From Prevotella sp. (GTDB taxonomy: Bacteria; Bacteroidota; Bacteroidia; Bacteroidales; Bacteroidaceae), in the NCBI GenBank assembly GCA_017470345.1, contig JAFUEP010000036.1, positions 25,466 through 89,465 on the forward strand: 64,000 nt of DNA, given 5' to 3'. This document shows positions 33,291-43,125 of the stretch, piece by piece. The notes under the pieces are model-generated. The model had not been told where the DNA came from. It was given only the letters and a program-made list of their open reading frames with translations, and made no database searches. The translations under genes were made by a program, and so were the position numbers. Numbering within the stretch: position 1 is the stretch's first letter; each line of letters opens with the position of its first letter.

Positions 33291-33382
33291 CAAACAAAAA
33301 GTCCACCGTTAAAGGACGATGGACCGGGGCCTAATGTTTTCACAACGGAATAATCCTTATTGTGATTTGCTAAAAATTAGTA
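33291..33382 (-). ncRNA. tracrRNA of the type II-C CRISPR-Cas9 system
   Basis: On the minus strand 33382-33360 reads TACTAATTTTTAGCAAATCACAA. This is the complement of the first 24 bases of the CRISPR repeat except for one missing T (five Ts against six As). The anti-repeat is followed by the usual Bacteroidota continuation (AATAAGGATTATTCCGTTGTGAAAAC), then a GTCCA...TGGAC hairpin with a T run (33324-33291) as terminator. It is divergent from cas9 and ends 78 bases before the stop of the hydrolase gene on the other strand. It base-pairs with crRNA and guides Cas9. Confidence 0.9.
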
Positions 33383-33385
33383 GTG

Positions 33386-33470: not shown

Positions 33471-36400
33471 ATGAAGAAGATTCTAGGCCTTGATTTAGGA
33501 ACTACCAGCATAGGATGGGCTCTCGTCAATGAGAAGGAAAACGAAAGTGAGCAATCATCGATCATCCGACTTGGCGTGAGGGTCAACCCGTTAACCATTG
33601 ACGAGAAGACGAACTACGAAAAAGGAAAGTCTGTTACAACTAACACAGACCGACGTCTGAAGCGTAGCATGCATAGAAACCTGCAGCGCTACAAATTGCG
33701 CAGAAAAAATCTTATCGAATGTCTTATTGAACATCATATCATCCATGACAACACACCGCTCTTTGAACTGGGCAACGGCTCTACCTTTAATACTTATAGA
33801 GCCAGAGCTAAAGCCGTGACAGAAGAAATATCGCTTGAGGATTTGGCTCGTGTCCTGTTGATGATAAACAAGAAAAGGGGCTATAAGAGTAGTCGTAAGG
33901 TGAAAGACGGCGAAGAAGGAGAGCTCATAGACGGCATGGAGATTGCCAAAAGGCTCTACGACGAGAACCTGACCCCAGGACTGCTGCTCCGCGAATTATA
34001 TGAGAAGGGCAAAAAGACAAGGCCTGCCTTTTATCGTTCTGACCTGCAAGCAGAATTCGACAAGATATGGGAGATTCAGTCTGCATTTTATCCTGACATC
34101 CTGACAGACGACTTTAAGGCTTCTGTCCGGGGCTTCAACAAAACCCAGACATCAGGTGCGTTCTATGGAGTCTACAAGATATACACAGCAAAAAACATTG
34201 GCAAGGAAGGCTATGCCCAATCCCTGAAATGGCGAACAGAAGCCTTGTCACGACAGCTTGGCATTGAGGAGGTGGCCTACATCCTGGCAGACATTAATGG
34301 AGCTATCAACAACTCAAGCAAGCGCTTAGCCATGATTAGCGACAGGAGCAAAGAGCTGTATTTTAGCCATCAGACCATCGGCCAGTATCTGATGCAGCGT
34401 TTAGACGAGAATCCCAATGCCAGCCTGACAAACATCATATTCTATCGTCAGGACTATATGGATGAGTTTGAGGCTATTTGGGAAAAGCAAGCCCAATATC
34501 ATCCAGAGCTGACTGCCGAATTGAAGAAAGAAGTCAGAGACAATATTATATTCTACCAACGCGAACTGAAAAGTTGTAAGAATCTTGTCAGCTATTGTGA
34601 GTTCGAGCACCAGGAACGCGAAGTCATCATCGACGGAAAGAAGAAGATGATACTGACCGGATGCAAGGTGTGCCCGAAGTCATCCCCATTATATCAGGAT
34701 TTCAAGATATGGCAGATCCTGAACAACCTGCAAGTGTCAGTCGTCGGCTATCAAAAGAAGAAAATCAGAAAGGAGTCTTCGCAGTTATCCCTTTTCGACG
34801 ACATCGAAACAGGTTCTCTTAACAGATTCCTGAGCCAAGAAGAAAAGGACATCCTCTATCATGAACTCTCAATCAAAGAGAAAATGAACAAAAAGGATGT
34901 TCTCAAGTTGCTGTTTGACAATCCGAAGAATCTTGACCTTAACTTTAAGGAGGTGGAAGGAAACAGAACTGTAGCCCTTCTCTTCAAGGCTTTTCAAGAC
35001 ATCATAAGCTTGACTGGCAACGGTGAATTCGACTTCTCAAAGATGTCAACAGACGACGTCCTGTCCACTGCTGCCGAGATCTTTAGTGGATTAGGCTACA
35101 AGACTGATTTCCTTACCTTCGATTCCTTGCTCGAAGGTAAGGCCTTAGAGCAACAACCACTCTATCGGTTGTGGCACCTGTTATATTCTTATACGGGCGA
35201 CAATTCGGCAACAGGCAACGTGGCTCTTCTTGAAAGAATCAAGGACCTCTGCGGCTTCGAAAAAGAATATGCAAACGTTCTTGCTAATCTGCCGTTGCCT
35301 CTTGACTATGGCAGTCTTAGCGCCAAAGCGATACGCAAGATATTGCCACACATGATGAAAGGATATGAATATAGCGAAGCCTGCAAGATGGCGGGCTACA
35401 ATCATTCCGTTCGCTCTCTGACTAAAGAAGAACTTGCTACGAAAGAATATAAGACACGGTTAGACGAGATAAAACGCAACAGCCTGCGCAACCCCGTGGT
35501 GGAAAAGATCCTTAATCAGATGATCAACGTCATCAATGAGATCGTGGCCACCTACGGCAAACCTGACGAGATACGTATTGAGATGGCTCGCGAACTGAAA
35601 AAGAGTCAGGAAGAACGGCAACTATTAGAAGAGGCCATCAGAAGAAACACTACTGAGAGTGAGAAACTGCGTCATGAGCTGGAAACAGAGTTCGGCATCC
35701 AACACGTAACCCGAAACGACATTCTCCGCTACAAACTTTATAACGAACTGAAATTAAACGGATACAAAACGCTCTATTCCAACACCTATATCCCAAGAGA
35801 GGAACTCTTCAGCAAACGGTTTGACATTGAACACATCATCCCGAAAGCCAGACTGTTTGATGACTCTTTCTCCAACAAAACCATTGAGGTAAGGGATATC
35901 AACATCGAGAAGGGAAGCATGACAGCCTATGACTATGTAGCCGGAAAATACGACGAGAAATATTTGTCTGACTATAAAAGCCGGATTGAAGAGCTCTATT
36001 CCCAGAAGGTGATCTCAAGAACCAAGCGCAACAACCTGCTGATGCAAGAATCCGAAATACCCTCAGACTTCTTGGAACGTGACCTTCGTGATTCACAATA
36101 TATAGCAAGGGAGGCAAGGGAGATTCTGGAGGAGATGGTGCCCCATGTCGTTACGACCACCGGCGTTGTCACTAGCCGGCTACGCGAAGACTGGCAACTG
36201 GTCAACCTTATGCAAGAATTGAATTGGGATAAGTATGACGCCTTAGGCATGACGGAGCGCTATACGGATAAAAACGGAAATGTCGTCAAGCACATTAAGG
36301 ACTGGACCAAGCGGAATGACCATCGCCACCATGCCATGGACGCTCTGACGATTGCATTTACAAAGCGCAGCATTGTGCAATATCTGAGTAATCTGAATGC

Positions 36401-37667
36401 CCGAAGTGACAAATCAGGCAGTATCTATGGTATAGAGCAAAAAGAGTTGCATCGCGACGAGAAGGACCACAAGCTGGTGTTCAATGCCCCGATGCCTTTG
36501 AATGAATTCAGGGCAGAAGCAAAGAAGCACCTTGGAAGCATTCTCGTTTCTATAAAAGCTAAGAACAAGGTAGTCACTAAAAACATCAACAGATTCAGAA
36601 GCAGCGAGGGCCAACGGCAAAAGGTTCAACTGACACCCCGCGGAGCGCTCCACAACGAAACTGTATATGGGAAGATTCTGAACTATGAAGCTGGATACAA
36701 GAAGGTGGACGGTAAGTTCACAGAGGAGGTCGTCCTTCGTGTCTCGAATCAAAGATACCGTCATGCATTATTAGCCAGACTAAATGAATACGGGAATGAC
36801 CCGAAGAAGGCTTTCACGGGGAAGAACAGCTTGGACAAGAATCCGGTTTGGCTTAGTGCCGACCACTCTCACAGCGTGCCCCAAACGGTCAAGCTCTTTA
36901 AGGTCGTCGATGTGTTCACAATCAAGAAGCCCGTCGATAAAGACCTGAAGGTTGACAAGGTCATCGATGGGCGTATCCGCCAGATATTGCGTGAAAGGCT
37001 TGTTGAGTTTGGCGGCGACGCGTCAAAAGCATTTTCTAATCTCGACGAGAATCCCATTTGGCTTAATCGGCAAAAGGGAATCTCAATTAAGAGAGTGAAA
37101 GTCAAGGCTAAGGTCTCAAGTGACACTTCCGTTGCTCTGCACGTCAAAAAAGACTTGTTTGGAAACATCATGAGGAATAAGGACGGGCAGACCATTCCGA
37201 TTGATTATGTCAATACTGCAAACAATCATCACGTTGCAATCTTTGCTGACGAAGAAGGCAACTGGCATGAACATGTCGTTCCGTTTTATGAGGCTACCGC
37301 AAGCGCATTGTTGGGTCTGCCTATAGTCGACAAGGACTATAAGCATGAAGAAGGATGGAAATTCCTTTTCTCGATGAAGCAAAACGAATACTTCGTATTC
37401 CCGAACGAGAAGACAGGATTTGTCCCCTCTGAAATTGATCTGACCAATCCCGACAACTATCACCTCATCAGTCCTAATCTTTATCGGGTGCAGAAGTTCT
37501 CCAGTTCTTTCTATGTGTTTAGGCATCACTTGGAAACCAATGTTGATGAATCAAATGAACTGAAAGGTTTTACATGGAAAAGAATTACAAGTCTAAAGAA
37601 TCTTGAAGGTGTCGTCAAGGTACGAGTAAACCATATCGGTCAAATAGTAAATGTTGGTGAGTATTAG
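33471..37667 (+). CDS. cas9: CRISPR-associated endonuclease Cas9, subtype II-C
   Basis: 1398 residues. RuvC-I: LGLDLGTTSIGWA with D8. Arg-rich bridge helix ~58-90 (DRRLKRSMHRNLQRYKLRRK). RuvC-II: IRIEMAREL with E704. HNH: FDIEHIIPKARLFDD with H788 and SFSNK downstream. RuvC-III: HRHHAMDA with H954 and D957. The remaining ~430 residues are the wedge and PAM-interacting part. All nuclease residues are present, so it should cut both strands of target DNA. Length is at the upper end for II-C but usual for Bacteroidota members. cas1 starts 3 bases downstream. GC content and codon use are lower and more mixed than in the SusCD block, consistent with horizontal acquisition. Confidence 0.98.
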   Translation: MKKILGLDLGTTSIGWALVNEKENESEQSSIIRLGVRVNPLTIDEKTNYEKGKSVTTNTDRRLKRSMHRNLQRYKLRRKNLIECLIEHHIIHDNTPLFELGNGSTFNTYRARAKAVTEEISLEDLARVLLMINKKRGYKSSRKVKDGEEGELIDGMEIAKRLYDENLTPGLLLRELYEKGKKTRPAFYRSDLQAEFDKIWEIQSAFYPDILTDDFKASVRGFNKTQTSGAFYGVYKIYTAKNIGKEGYAQSLKWRTEALSRQLGIEEVAYILADINGAINNSSKRLAMISDRSKELYFSHQTIGQYLMQRLDENPNASLTNIIFYRQDYMDEFEAIWEKQAQYHPELTAELKKEVRDNIIFYQRELKSCKNLVSYCEFEHQEREVIIDGKKKMILTGCKVCPKSSPLYQDFKIWQILNNLQVSVVGYQKKKIRKESSQLSLFDDIETGSLNRFLSQEEKDILYHELSIKEKMNKKDVLKLLFDNPKNLDLNFKEVEGNRTVALLFKAFQDIISLTGNGEFDFSKMSTDDVLSTAAEIFSGLGYKTDFLTFDSLLEGKALEQQPLYRLWHLLYSYTGDNSATGNVALLERIKDLCGFEKEYANVLANLPLPLDYGSLSAKAIRKILPHMMKGYEYSEACKMAGYNHSVRSLTKEELATKEYKTRLDEIKRNSLRNPVVEKILNQMINVINEIVATYGKPDEIRIEMARELKKSQEERQLLEEAIRRNTTESEKLRHELETEFGIQHVTRNDILRYKLYNELKLNGYKTLYSNTYIPREELFSKRFDIEHIIPKARLFDDSFSNKTIEVRDINIEKGSMTAYDYVAGKYDEKYLSDYKSRIEELYSQKVISRTKRNNLLMQESEIPSDFLERDLRDSQYIAREAREILEEMVPHVVTTTGVVTSRLREDWQLVNLMQELNWDKYDALGMTERYTDKNGNVVKHIKDWTKRNDHRHHAMDALTIAFTKRSIVQYLSNLNARSDKSGSIYGIEQKELHRDEKDHKLVFNAPMPLNEFRAEAKKHLGSILVSIKAKNKVVTKNINRFRSSEGQRQKVQLTPRGALHNETVYGKILNYEAGYKKVDGKFTEEVVLRVSNQRYRHALLARLNEYGNDPKKAFTGKNSLDKNPVWLSADHSHSVPQTVKLFKVVDVFTIKKPVDKDLKVDKVIDGRIRQILRERLVEFGGDASKAFSNLDENPIWLNRQKGISIKRVKVKAKVSSDTSVALHVKKDLFGNIMRNKDGQTIPIDYVNTANNHHVAIFADEEGNWHEHVVPFYEATASALLGLPIVDKDYKHEEGWKFLFSMKQNEYFVFPNEKTGFVPSEIDLTNPDNYHLISPNLYRVQKFSSSFYVFRHHLETNVDESNELKGFTWKRITSLKNLEGVVKVRVNHIGQIVNVGEY

Positions 37668-37670
37668 CCT

Positions 37671-38941
<1,271 letters not shown>

Positions 38942-38943
38942 AG

Positions 38944-38984
38944 GCGGAGAATCCCATCTGGCCGATGGAATCTCCGCTTTTCTT
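38944..38984 (+). terminator. Terminator after cas2
   Basis: GCGGAGA...CCAT pairs with ATGG...TCTCCGC and is followed by TTTTCTTT. It ends the cas operon on the plus strand. Confidence 0.8.
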
Positions 38985-39049
38985 TGCAGCATTTTTCTTT
39001 TCTAATCTGTAGTGCAAACATCTGGATATCAGCTAATTCCTGTAATCGA
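38985..39049. promoter_or_regulatory. Candidate CRISPR leader next to cas2
   Basis: AT-rich 65 bases between the cas terminator and the first intact repeat. It contains GTAGTGCAAA, a 10-base string also present beside the tracrRNA anti-repeat (33381-33390). The repeat at this end is intact while the far end is degenerate, so I infer this is the side where new spacers enter. Confidence 0.4.
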
Positions 39050-42000
39050 GATGTTTCTGCCACTGCAAAGGTACTAATTTTTTAGCAAATCACAACTTAA
39101 ACCCCGTCGGCTCGCCAGAACGATTGGATGTTTCTGCCACTGCAAAGGTACTAATTTTTTAGCAAATCACAACCTGTCGTCGATGTTGATTGTGTTCATT
39201 ACAGATGTTTCTGCCACTGCAAAGGTACTAATTTTTTAGCAAATCACAACCGTTGGCGTTGATGGTGTAGTCGATGTAGGGATGTTTCTGCCACTGCAAA
39301 GGTACTAATTTTTTAGCAAATCACAACCGTATCGGCTGCACGGCATTAAGTAATACGGATGTTTCTGCCACTGCAAAGGTACTAATTTTTTAGCAAATCA
39401 CAACGGGCATGCGTCGGCACAGACGACGCAGATTGATGTTTCTGCCACTGCAAAGGTACTAATTTTTTAGCAAATCACAACTCAAACGCTTCTTTGGCTT
39501 TCGGCATGAGGATGTTTCTGCCACTGCAAAGGTACTAATTTTTTAGCAAATCACAACTAAAACTTCGTTCCAACCATACTCGTCCGAGATGTTTCTGCCA
39601 CTGCAAAGGTACTAATTTTTTAGCAAATCACAACTCTTCCATGATGATGATCCCCGCTATGTCTGATGTTTCTGCCACTGCAAAGGTACTAATTTTTTAG
39701 CAAATCACAACATTGCGCCTTGCTCTCCCTGTGCGCCACGAGATGTTTCTGCCACTGCAAAGGTACTAATTTTTTAGCAAATCACAACCCGATCCCCGAG
39801 GATTGCGATGACCTGGACGATGTTTCTGCCACTGCAAAGGTACTAATTTTTTAGCAAATCACAACCCACGACGCATCGTTCTTTATGAATAGCGGGATGT
39901 TTCTGCCACTGCAAAGGTACTAATTTTTTAGCAAATCACAACAAATAAGCATAATGAGATCAAGGCCCTGGGGATGTTTCTGCCACTGCAAAGGTACTAA
40001 TTTTTTAGCAAATCACAACAGCCAGGCGGGTGTGCATCGTATCGAAACAGATGTTTCTGCCACTGCAAAGGTACTAATTTTTTAGCAAATCACAACTGGT
40101 ACAGACATTGAAACTGCACCGCATCCGATGTTTCTGCCACTGCAAAGGTACTAATTTTTTAGCAAATCACAACTTCTTGGTCAACCTCTATCTCCTCTAT
40201 ATTGATGTTTCTGCCACTGCAAAGGTACTAATTTTTTAGCAAATCACAACTAATGGTTGGCAACACGCTTTACGTATGTTGATGTTTCTGCCACTGCAAA
40301 GGTACTAATTTTTTAGCAAATCACAACTTCACAGCCATTTGTCTGCAAGTATCTTAAGATGTTTCTGCCACTGCAAAGGTACTAATTTTTTAGCAAATCA
40401 CAACTGTAGAGCATTTCAGCCCGCTTCACCAGCGGATGTTTCTGCCACTGCAAAGGTACTAATTTTTTAGCAAATCACAACTGCATAGCCGCAGGGGAAA
40501 TGGCAGGCTCTGATGTTTCTGCCACTGCAAAGGTACTAATTTTTTAGCAAATCACAACTACGCTTGCATCTAATAAGCCGCGTTTGATGATGTTTCTGCC
40601 ACTGCAAAGGTACTAATTTTTTAGCAAATCACAACTGAACTTCAAAATATCAGTTTGCGGCCTCTGATGTTTCTGCCACTGCAAAGGTACTAATTTTTTA
40701 GCAAATCACAACTACAAAGTTGCACATGTATCCAAAAGACAGATGTTTCTGCCACTGCAAAGGTACTAATTTTTTAGCAAATCACAACCTGATGATTTTG
40801 CGGTGATTCTTGGTATTGATGTTTCTGCCACTGCAAAGGTACTAATTTTTTAGCAAATCACAACAGAGCTTCAAAATATTAGTTTGCGCCCTCTGATGTT
40901 TCTGCCACTGCAAAGGTACTAATTTTTTAGCAAATCACAACTGCTTGGTGATATTGCAGGTAAAAATTACGGATGTTTCTGCCACTGCAAAGGTACTAAT
41001 TTTTTAGCAAATCACAACACCTCTTGCTTGAAACGTTGCTCGTATTTGGATGTTTCTGCCACTGCAATGGTACTAATTTTTTCGAAAATCACAACGGCAT
41101 TGCAGCGTGCGTGAAAAGCATCCTTGATGTTTCTGCCACTGCAAAGGTACTAATTTTTTAGCAAATCACAACAATTTTGTCATTTATCGCTTTCTAATCC
41201 TCGATGTTTCTGCCACTGCAAAGGTACTAATTTTTTAGCAAATCACAACTACCGCCTAATCGCGTCAGAAGATGGCGCCGATGTTTCTGCCACTGCAAAG
41301 GTACTAATTTTTTAGCAAATCACAACGGCTGTGCGGAAATTACCACCGAGCGCCGCGATGTTTCTGCCACTGCAAAGGTACTAATTTTTTAGCAAATCAC
41401 AACAGAGCTCCAAAATATATCCTTGCGTCCTCTGATGTTTCTGCCACTGCAAAGGTACTAATTTTTTAGCAAATCACAACCTACAGCTGAAACTGAAAAC
41501 GCGTCTCTTGGATGTTTCTGCCACTGCAAAGGTACTAATTTTTTAGCAAATCACAACTGGACTTATCTTCTTTAACCATCGTGGATGGATGTTTCTGCCA
41601 CTGCAAAGGTACTAATTTTTTAGCAAATCACAACAGACCGCTGCTTTTGCCCGTTTTAATACGGGATGTTTCTGCCACTGCAAAGGTACTAATTTTTTAG
41701 CAAATCACAACTCCACGGTGATGCTTGCGGTGATCACTGAAGATGTTTCTGCCACTGCAAAGGTACTAATTTTTTAGCAAATCACAACACCCGGAAGGCC
41801 GCAAGTTCACACAGTCCAGATGTTTCTGCCACTGCAAAGGTACTAATTTTTTAGCAAATCACAACATTCCTGCAGCTTGAGGCCTTCTGCCTGTAGATGT
41901 TTCTGCCACTGCAAAGGTACTAATTTTTTAGCAAATCACAACATGCGGTTGTTGTATGTGCGCGGCGACAGCGATGTTTCTGCCACTGCAAAGGTACTAA

Positions 42001-43017
42001 TTTTTTAGCAAATCACAACTAGAGCATGAGGGGCTTTGCGTCTGTGACAGATGTTTCTGCCACTGCAAAGGTACTAATTTTTTAGCAAATCACAACGTCC
42101 CCGGTAACTTTCCCCTCTCTATGGGGATGTTTCTGCCACTGCAAAGGTACTAATTTTTTAGCAAATCACAACAGTTTGCTGATGAGGTTCGTTTTTTGTA
42201 CAGATGTTTCTGCCACTGCAAAGGTACTAATTTTTTAGCAAATCACAACCACTCAAGCTGCTTTATCGCTTCCGAGTATGATGTTTCTGCCACTGCAAAG
42301 GTACTAATTTTTTAGCAAATCACAACTGTGAATCTTTGGGTTCCTATGGCTTTTAAGATGTTTCTGCCACTGCAAAGGTACTAATTTTTTAGCAAATCAC
42401 AACAGGTCATCCATCAGTTTCTTATCATTCTTGATGTTTCTGCCACTGCAAAGGTACTAATTTTTTAGCAAATCACAACTGTCCTCACGCTCATGGTGCT
42501 CACGCTCCGATGTTTCTGCCACTGCAAAGGTACTAATTTTTTAGCAAATCACAACAGGTTTTTCTTCTCGGTAAAATTTCTTGATGATGTTTCTGCCACT
42601 GCAAAGGTACTAATTTTTTAGCAAATCACAACGCTCTGGCCGACTTCTGCGATACGTTCTTGGATGTTTCTGCCACTGCAAAGGTACTAATTTTTTAGCA
42701 AATCACAACGACAGAGTGTTGTTCCAGCTACTTGACAGAGATGTTTCTGCCACTGCAAAGGTACTAATTTTTTAGCAAATCACAACTTGGTGTTCCAAAT
42801 TCGATAGTAGACTGTAGATGTTTCTGCCACTGCAAAGGTACTAATTTTTTAGCAAATCACAACTGAGGCAGTGGCCGACCTGCCAGCTGCTCAGATGTTT
42901 CTGCCACTGCAAAGGTACTAATTTTTTAGCAAATCACAACAATACAGGGCTGGTAGGAGTGCTGACGCTCGATGTTCCTGCCACTGCATAGGTGCTAATT
43001 GTTTAGCAAATTACGAT
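39050..43017 (-). CRISPR. Type II-C CRISPR array, 52 repeats of 47 bp and 51 spacers
   Basis: Counting unit by unit gives 52 repeats. Forty-five spacers are 30 bases, and six are 29 (after repeats 6, 22, 23, 40, 44 and 45). In crRNA orientation (minus strand) the repeat starts GTTGTGATTTGCTAAAAAAT and ends GGCAGAAACATC; its first 24 bases match the tracrRNA anti-repeat. Repeat 27 (41049-41095) is mutated in both the pairing region and the promoter-like motif, and repeat 52 (42971-43017) is degenerate. Every intact repeat contains TACCTTTG at repeat positions 24-31 with TTG 19 bases upstream, a Bacteroidota promoter pointing into the following spacer. Spacers at 40636-40665, 40865-40894 and 41404-41433 are variants of one target. 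The other spacers are mutually unrelated as far as I can see. Confidence 0.98.
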
Positions 43018-43041
43018 TTGTCCAAGCCGACGAAAAACTGA

Positions 43042-43125
43042 TGTCACGACGTGACTTCATGACGTCACGACGTGGCGGCATGGCGTCACGACGTGATTTC
43101 ATGGCGTCACGGCGTGACGGCATGA
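43042..43125. repeat. Four tandem copies of a 21-bp repeat
   Basis: Units at 43042, 43063, 43084 and 43105 follow the pattern CGTCACGACGTGnnnnCATGG. Each contains the near-palindrome GTCACGACGTGAC. The repeats begin 24 bases after the last CRISPR repeat. Read as protein they give a seven-residue repeat (SRRDFMx), but the frame around them shows no convincing gene. Confidence 0.85.

Follow-up and report, generated by a model that had tools for sequence, protein, structure and literature searches.

A clustered regularly interspaced short palindromic repeats (CRISPR) array in the genome of a Prevotella sp. carries three different spacers that encode one peptide, ELQNISLRP, and differ from one another by synonymous changes only. 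The array lies in a stretch of 64,000 nucleotides (nt) (GenBank assembly GCA_017470345.1, contig JAFUEP010000036.1, positions 25,466 to 89,465 of the forward strand), here called the window, whose own numbering is used throughout. Very probably, the array acquired the same protospacer three times, independently, each time from another diverged allele of one conserved gene of an invader.

Three synonymous spacers with one boundary

The guide of each spacer is the reverse complement of the plus-strand letters given here.

Spacer 21, 40636..40665, minus strand; plus-strand letters T GAA CTT CAA AAT ATC AGT TTG CGG CCT CT, encoding ELQNISLRP(L)
Spacer 24, 40865..40894, minus strand; plus-strand letters A GAG CTT CAA AAT ATT AGT TTG CGC CCT CT, encoding ELQNISLRP(L)
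Spacer 31, 41404..41433, minus strand; plus-strand letters A GAG CTC CAA AAT ATA TCC TTG CGT CCT CT, encoding ELQNISLRP(L)

Reading and parsing of the array returned the three spacers at exactly the coordinates claimed in a first-pass annotation of the window, with identical boundaries and with ELQNISLRP encoded from the second base in one register, as that annotation had proposed. Each spacer closes with CT, the first two bases of a tenth codon that would specify leucine. Spacers 21 and 24 differ at 4 of 30 bases (positions 1, 4, 16 and 25), spacers 24 and 31 at 6 of 30 (positions 7, 16-19 and 25), and spacers 21 and 31 at 8 of 30. The earlier claim that these differences are exclusively synonymous was correct: every change falls at codon position 3 or within the switch between the serine codons AGT and TCC, where positions 1 and 2 change too. 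Simulated random substitution retained ELQNISLRP with P 0.0055 for four changes, 2.7e-4 for six and 2.5e-5 for eight; the values for retaining any open frame of six were 0.016, 8.5e-4 and 5.5e-5, and a separate any-frame estimate gave 0.016, 0.0014 and below 5e-5. The synonymous-only differences thus support a protein-coding source under purifying selection, which had also been suggested at the outset. Within the array, the next-best pair of spacers reaches a local alignment score of 11, versus 15, 18 and 23 for the three pairs of the triple. The neighbours of spacers 21, 24 and 31 differ, and the repeats flanking them are unchanged.

The CRISPR-Cas locus and the sense of its guides

By its sequence, the locus that holds the array is classified as a type II-C CRISPR-Cas9 system, with the order cas9-cas1-cas2 and a predicted trans-activating CRISPR RNA (tracrRNA) upstream of cas9.

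33359..33384, minus strand, tracrRNA anti-repeat immediately before cas9, differing from the 5' end of the repeat at 1 of 18 positions
33471..37667, plus strand, cas9, 1398 amino acids (TIGR01865, E=6.6e-154)
37671..38606, plus strand, cas1 of the type II family, 311 amino acids (TIGR03639, E=9.5e-94)
38603..38941, plus strand, cas2, 112 amino acids (TIGR01573, E=1.2e-17)
38942..39049, presumed leader that separates cas2 from the first repeat, the probable entry side for new spacers
39050..43017, CRISPR array, CRISPR RNA (crRNA) sense minus, 52 repeats of 47 nt and 51 spacers
42971..43017, minus strand, degenerate terminal repeat with 7 mismatches, taken as the trailer end

Two hallmarks of type II-C were found, namely Cas9, a type II Cas1 and Cas2 together in one locus, and a tracrRNA anti-repeat that pairs with the 5' part of the crRNA repeat. 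A search limited to the locus gave no match to csn2 or cas4 among seven flanking open reading frames (ORFs), one of which matched no family, and cas9, cas1, cas2 and the array are so tightly packed that neither gene has room between them. Spacers are 29-30 nt long. On the minus strand, the repeat resembles Rfam CRISPR-DR49, at 29.8 bits and under the gathering score of 41. Bacteroidota promoters have a -7/-33 consensus, to which TACCTTTG and TTTG within the repeat bear a likeness of sequence alone. One internal repeat (41049-41095, between spacers 26 and 27) has 3 mismatches and is a lone case, and tandem palindromic GACGTCACGACGTGAC-like units (43039-43125) directly follow the trailer end of the array.

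The anti-repeat fits the 5' end of the repeat when the latter is read as GTTGTGATTTGC..., with 1 mismatch in 18 versus 5 for the best fit to the 3' end. Hence crRNAs are read from the minus strand, and the protospacer adjacent motif (PAM) lies to the left of each spacer as printed; the anti-repeat at 33359-33384 thereby bears out the side that the first-pass annotation had assigned to the PAM. In four other arrays, same-site variants with a one-base difference in length are flush at that same PAM end.

For comparison, Cas9 was sought in 299 genomes of the genus, of which 98 gave a match and 77 a match above the cut-off. Together with the window, 80 stretches beside Cas9 genes provided 61 arrays, 59 loci and 1345 usable spacers, after a non-CRISPR repeat in locus L120 and one 58-nt spacer produced by a skipped repeat (1346 to 1345) had been dropped. 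In loci with 47-nt repeats, the 5' half of the repeat was the better partner of the anti-repeat by at least 2 in 25 of 39 and the worse in 3. The figures for the other repeat class were 7 and 0 of 18 loci, a class that includes 3 cut 47-nt repeats; beside cas9 in true 36-nt-repeat loci, a conserved match to the 5' half was present in 12 of 15. This survey across loci led us to reject a wrong crRNA orientation.

Array ends were callable in 28 of the 61 arrays. Among long-repeat arrays with callable ends, the degenerate repeat is at the 5' end (crRNA sense) in 19 of 21, the window included and L186, whose class is unclear, counted against. Type II-C systems are reported, in PMC12638026, to acquire spacers at the 3' end of the array and to have promoters within repeats. 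The degenerate 5' end of the window array is indirectly consistent with such acquisition at the 3' end in crRNA sense. Likewise, the 7 mismatches in the last repeat (42971-43017) suggest that the right end of the array is the old one, and the leader was placed at 38942..39049 because the opposite end carries the degenerate repeat and because of this reported polarity. Arrays with 36-nt repeats mostly have their degenerate repeat at the 3' end in crRNA sense (6 of 7). Opposite degenerate ends in the 47-nt type and the 36-nt arrays suggest that the genus contains two II-C subgroups that acquire spacers at opposite ends.

Provided that the leader is at the left, spacer 21 is the newest and spacer 31 the oldest of the triple. 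Spacer 24 is intermediate between 31 and 21 in sequence and is also positioned between them in the array, an arrangement that weakly, with three items only, fits a lineage sampled over time. Mismatches close to the PAM weaken targeting by Cas9. Since no pair of the three is free of mismatches in the 7 bases nearest the PAM, an older guide was probably poor against a later variant. From these PAM-end mismatches, it is plausible that a single spacer did not suffice to cover the diverged variants.

Same-site variants in related loci

Spacer variants of this kind recur in the genus. Within loci, 13 spacer pairs had 1-8 mismatches over at least 27 bases, and five shuffles gave 1, 0, 0, 0 and 1. Between loci, 11 variant pairs were found versus 3-10 in shuffles; with a count so near the shuffles, only the pair of L167 and L180 (5 mismatches, flush) is convincing. 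A further scan for overlaps took 23,090 within-locus pairs and allowed either strand and an offset of at most 18 bases; it is weaker for short offset overlaps than for flush ones. It returned 12 non-identical overlaps above the score limit, 10 of which share the strand and coincide at the PAM end (five shuffles: 0, 0, 0, 1, 0). If sites were chosen at random, with a PAM every 16 bases, the expected flush share would be ~18% of overlaps. The other two overlaps are L151 2752/3210, shifted by one base, and a pair in L163 on opposite strands; because two flush pairs share the window, nine independent flush cases of 11 remain. The L163 pair (10745 and 12668) overlaps by 17 bases and is the sole opposite-strand overlap above the limit in the whole scan.

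Codon phase was tested on these nine cases, with the window counted once (pair 21/24) and L151 2752/3210 and L163 excluded. All mismatches shared one codon phase in six (L149, L112, L138, L164, the window and L142; P ~3e-5), and the rule failed in three. Mismatches leaned toward the PAM side, with 13 of 31 within 8 bases versus 8.3 expected (P 0.047), and a mismatch lay within 10 bases of the PAM end in 8 of 9 cases. An identical neighbour accompanied none of the 11 listed variant pairs versus 9 of 16 identical pairs, the latter being the outcome expected of segmental duplication. Finally, one spacer was 29 and the other 30 nt long, with the PAM end flush, in four of the nine cases (L112, L138, L166 and L142), a configuration that plain copying does not produce.

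Search for the ELQNISLRP target

Degenerate patterns for the peptide were run through IMG/VR in six scans that returned 0, 2, 1, 4, 1 and 0 stretches (8 in total, all translated), and through genome_contigs in one scan that returned 3; none was a convincing protospacer. In the family (300 further genomes, no more than 1 mismatch allowed) the peptide pattern gave 2 matches, and in the genus (397 further genomes, no more than 2 mismatches) it gave 13, again with no convincing protospacer. Pattern matches fell in short frames, altered peptides or unrelated genes. Examples are a ParB-like frame reading ELQKITLRP (L049), a frame of 22 residues with ELLNISLRP (L006), a repetitive frame of 62 residues (L042), and a match from the family scan with an in-frame stop in its letters (L007), all of which were rejected. 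Nucleotide searches (blastn) with each of the three spacers in 50,697 phage records, and with spacer 24 also in 72,556 plasmid records, yielded weak matches (eight in the plasmids) and no convincing target. Rejected among these were Lak megaphage matches of spacer 24 (E=8), whose frame reads another peptide, EIQNIILKIL, in an apparent ABC ATPase, and a fecal phage match of spacer 21 in an ABC transporter frame. The whole array searched against plasmids retrieved two records resembling other CRISPR arrays and one chance match. Thus, the proposal that the spacers derive from three diverged versions of one invader gene stands as far as the coding source, the shared boundaries, the PAM side and the recurrence in relatives are concerned, and lacks a convincing protospacer from these searches.

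Microviridae as probable targets of genus spacers

Searched against phages by blastn, the window array gave five weak records with one lead, spacer 25, which matched a microvirus capsid gene. Two spacers of the array are of interest in this respect.

Spacer 25, beside spacer 24, 40942..40971, minus strand; LGDIAGKNYG, a motif of the Microviridae major capsid protein
Spacer 12, 39943..39972, minus strand; ISIMRSRPW, a possible and weaker Microviridae capsid site

Alone, spacer 25 retrieved 125 blastn records at chance-level E-values; among the 60 listed, 15 were microvirus capsid genes, and 13 of these 15 were matched at the GDIAGK part. Protein-level comparison employed a panel of 58 proteins from 15 microvirus records and three prophage capsids, set against 1330 unique spacers (duplicates having been removed from the 1345 for this, for the profile search and for a double-stranded DNA panel described below). 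Spacer 25 scored 40, whereas scores of at least 40 occurred in 0 of 1330 with the reversed panel and 2 of 1330 with shuffled spacers, and the maximum among 204 controls was 36. Profiles built from 17 capsid and 13 replication proteins, with a threshold of 34, gave it 40.1 versus a null maximum of 36.6 of 2660. Spacer 25 therefore matches one capsid position beyond chance. The capsid profile score of spacer 12 was 35.7, with null maxima of 31.5 of 1345 and 36.6 of 2660.

Spacers of the genus (58 loci, L112-L191, plus the window) often match Microviridae capsid, replication and pilot proteins. At a score of at least 38, the protein panel gave 34 matches, with 0 for reversed proteins and 2 for shuffled spacers; the profiles gave 41 matches at 34, distributed over 23 of 59 loci, with 1 to 1.5 per profile and orientation for shuffled spacers. 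Nucleotide matching of the array had disclosed one such target, and protein-level matching of spacers revealed many. The capsid motif K(A/S)VRPMS was hit by spacers of different species (L167 11235, L180 1970 and L152 11737). Both same-site spacers of L149 read QEKMLEKQF, a perfect match (9 of 9 residues) to the pilot protein of a microvirus; a single-stranded DNA (ssDNA) phage is thus the very probable target of one or more same-site synonymous pairs. One microvirus match of an L142 spacer that was inspected, from its comparison with phages, was a Ser-Ala stretch in which the peptide is not read, and was rejected as target. Overall, the capsid motifs of Bacteroidota-type Microviridae, which we take to be Alpavirinae-like, match spacer 25 and many genus spacers; for ELQNISLRP, such a target is tentative. 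In IMG/VR, a whole-capsid scan gave no match and a GDIAGK-motif scan six unrelated ones.

Guides of the 41 profile matches were unevenly oriented, 35 being antisense and 6 sense to the coding strand, with the caveat that matches within a locus are non-independent (L112 has 5) and that the microvirus panel derives from animal-associated records. In these microviruses, the coding strand is the virion strand. The reversed-panel control at 34 had no antisense excess (5 antisense, 9 sense). A double-stranded DNA prophage panel from the same genus, comprising 103 ORFs, in part putative genes, from loci around portal, terminase and capsid genes, gave 2 antisense and 3 sense matches at a score giving the microvirus panel 28 and 6, five being few for a comparison. 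The antisense-to-sense ratio in the microvirus panel was at least 5 for 3 of 255 four-letter motifs and at least 3 for 9 of 255. With so few motifs at a ratio of at least 5, PAM composition was rejected as a general cause of the strand bias; it may hold for single Cas9s.

Origin of the synonymous spacers

Under independent re-acquisition, Cas1-Cas2 would have cut the same PAM-adjacent site each time, with few PAM sites being preferred, be it at a hotspot or in a small phage genome that offers few of them. The oldest spacer, 31, would have lost cover of later variants through PAM-proximal mismatches, and the newer spacers 24 and then 21 would have been gained and retained. Alleles this divergent, with a serine switch that takes three bases, suggest lineages circulating side by side and not fresh escape mutants, and the recurrence of same-site variants in related arrays further supports independent acquisition.

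Several results weigh against this account. The searches produced no convincing protospacer for ELQNISLRP, hence no gene or PAM, and the genomes surveyed are partly incomplete assemblies. Two of the ten flush pairs come from the window and are non-independent. The peptide is kept exactly in some frame in only five of nine cases (L149, L112, L164, the window and L142), and three of these (L149, L112 and L164) have two mismatches each and are weak alone (P 0.14-0.28); L142, with five changes (P 0.0077), is significant on its own, as is the window triple. One residue is changed in L138 (P 0.93), two in the adjacent pair of L166 (P 0.71) and four in the adjacent pair of L147 (P 0.96), and the L151 pair is a hairpin (P 0.72). 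Each of these L151 spacers (1216 and 1446) forms a perfect hairpin, and the one stem base pair in which they differ is compensated, so the constraint on them looks structural; they appear as if drawn from a phage terminator or similar structure.

Other routes to the triple can be compared on the same data. That a spacer was duplicated inside the array and its copies then mutated has a precedent in the 16 identical spacer pairs of the arrays, but we regard it as hardly credible: all changes in the triple are synonymous, its neighbours are not duplicated, the repeats around it are unchanged, and other cases show one-base length differences. On the synonymous pattern and the lack of duplicated neighbours, duplication with drift was rejected for this triple. 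Recombination between arrays of different strains, each having sampled the hotspot from its own phage variant, would be permitted by the identical repeats, and several arrays do contain identical segmental copies; with one convincing cross-locus same-site pair only (L167/L180), the other sampled species are not the source, and we think this route unlikely. Unlikely, too, is an updating guided by memory, in which Cas9 with an older, partly matching guide would bind the diverged site and steer Cas1-Cas2 to the same protospacer. It would explain why same-site pairs far exceed other overlaps (10 versus 2) and why a mismatch lies within 10 bases of the PAM end in 8 of 9 cases. A parallel comes from Legionella type I-C, where newer spacers with a perfect match overlap older spacers with mismatches, and where priming is one interpretation given by the authors (PMC5071653). 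A plain hotspot yields the same pattern, though, and the type II priming described in PMC8265633 takes nearby spacers, not the same site.

Two views of the invader itself also differ in merit. A narrower form of independent re-acquisition, possible but tentative, makes the invader an ssDNA microvirus of the Bacteroidales type and places ELQNISLRPL, in a diverged subfamily, at the capsid site PE(L/F)DN(L/I/V)GMQPL; repeat sampling of one site would be natural in a small microvirus genome with few PAM sites. Spacer 25 and, more weakly, spacer 12 of the same array match microvirus capsid, the L149 same-site pair matches a microvirus, and the guide orientation of the ELQNISLRP spacers fits the antisense majority. 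The best capsid position for ELQNISLRP, EFDNIGMVP/ELDNVGMQP, scores 20.2 and the next 8.3, and the IMG/VR patterns yielded no such capsids, which could account for the missing target. Yet shuffled spacers attain the same capsid profile score in 120 of 1345 instances (P ~0.09), the sixth motif position is Gly in 17 of 17 capsids and Ser in all three spacers, and spacers 21, 24 and 31 have no microvirus match by blastn. An origin in a DarB-like protein of a phage or plasmid, within its SNF2-like helicase part, is very unlikely. It is prompted by in-frame ELQNITLSPYL in two IMG/VR contigs (L004 and L005) and in-frame ELQNITLRPY in a Bacteroidales SNF2 protein (L045). By our estimate, patterns of this kind should match by chance some ten times in these collections, and other scans gave unrelated matches in comparable numbers; moreover, Arg is replaced by Ser in the phage matches, and the L045 match is a different helicase site. 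Exact ELQNISLRP was not seen in frame in a Bacteroidota SNF2/DarB-like gene, where only ELQNITLSP, ILNARLIAISP and ELQNITLRPY appeared, and we judge the in-frame SNF2-like matches to be chance. A broader proposal, which we consider improbable, holds that II-C systems of the genus update their spacers in place: a Cas9-guide complex with a partial match would mark the diverged site and so bring about re-capture of the same protospacer. Such updating would frequently be directed at ssDNA microviruses, and guides complementary to the virion (coding) strand would be favoured at acquisition or by retention, which would make the incoming single strand or its messenger RNA (mRNA) the target that counts.

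Relation to known systems

The nearest precedent is the Legionella pneumophila type I-C system with its spacer pairs against LME-1 (PMC5071653), where an older mismatched and a newer perfect spacer have overlapping targets, read as possible priming after escape. Those pairs belong to type I, involve overlapping targets and differ in PAM or seed, whereas the window has synonymous divergence, three alleles and one boundary. Streptococcus mutans type II-A resembles the present case in that later acquisition seems to be influenced by a spacer already present that matches in part. It differs in that new spacers fall within kilobases rather than at the same protospacer; 55% of first spacers in priming lie within 2.5 kb, according to PMC8265633. 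The II-C system of Flavobacterium columnare shares the order cas9-cas1-cas2 with our locus and, according to PMC8092290, draws spacers from a limited protospacer pool with uneven targets, transcribes crRNA toward the acquisition end and has the PAM end facing the leader. In contrast to that system, the window has a natural array with three alleles of one site, and its repeat is 47 nt rather than 36. Our literature search, confined to open-licence papers, turned up neither families of synonymous same-site spacers in type II-C nor a strand bias against Microviridae.

Synonymous-only spacer families mean that a host genome alone can reveal a stretch of protein that an unseen phage cannot change, and they also record the diversification of the phage over the life of the array. 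Same-site families are also informative on a pair of adaptation models that are difficult to distinguish, random sampling with hotspots and steering by old memory. The mostly antisense guides that match Microviridae proteins, in turn, make it testable whether Cas9 defends on the single strand, the replicative form or mRNA.

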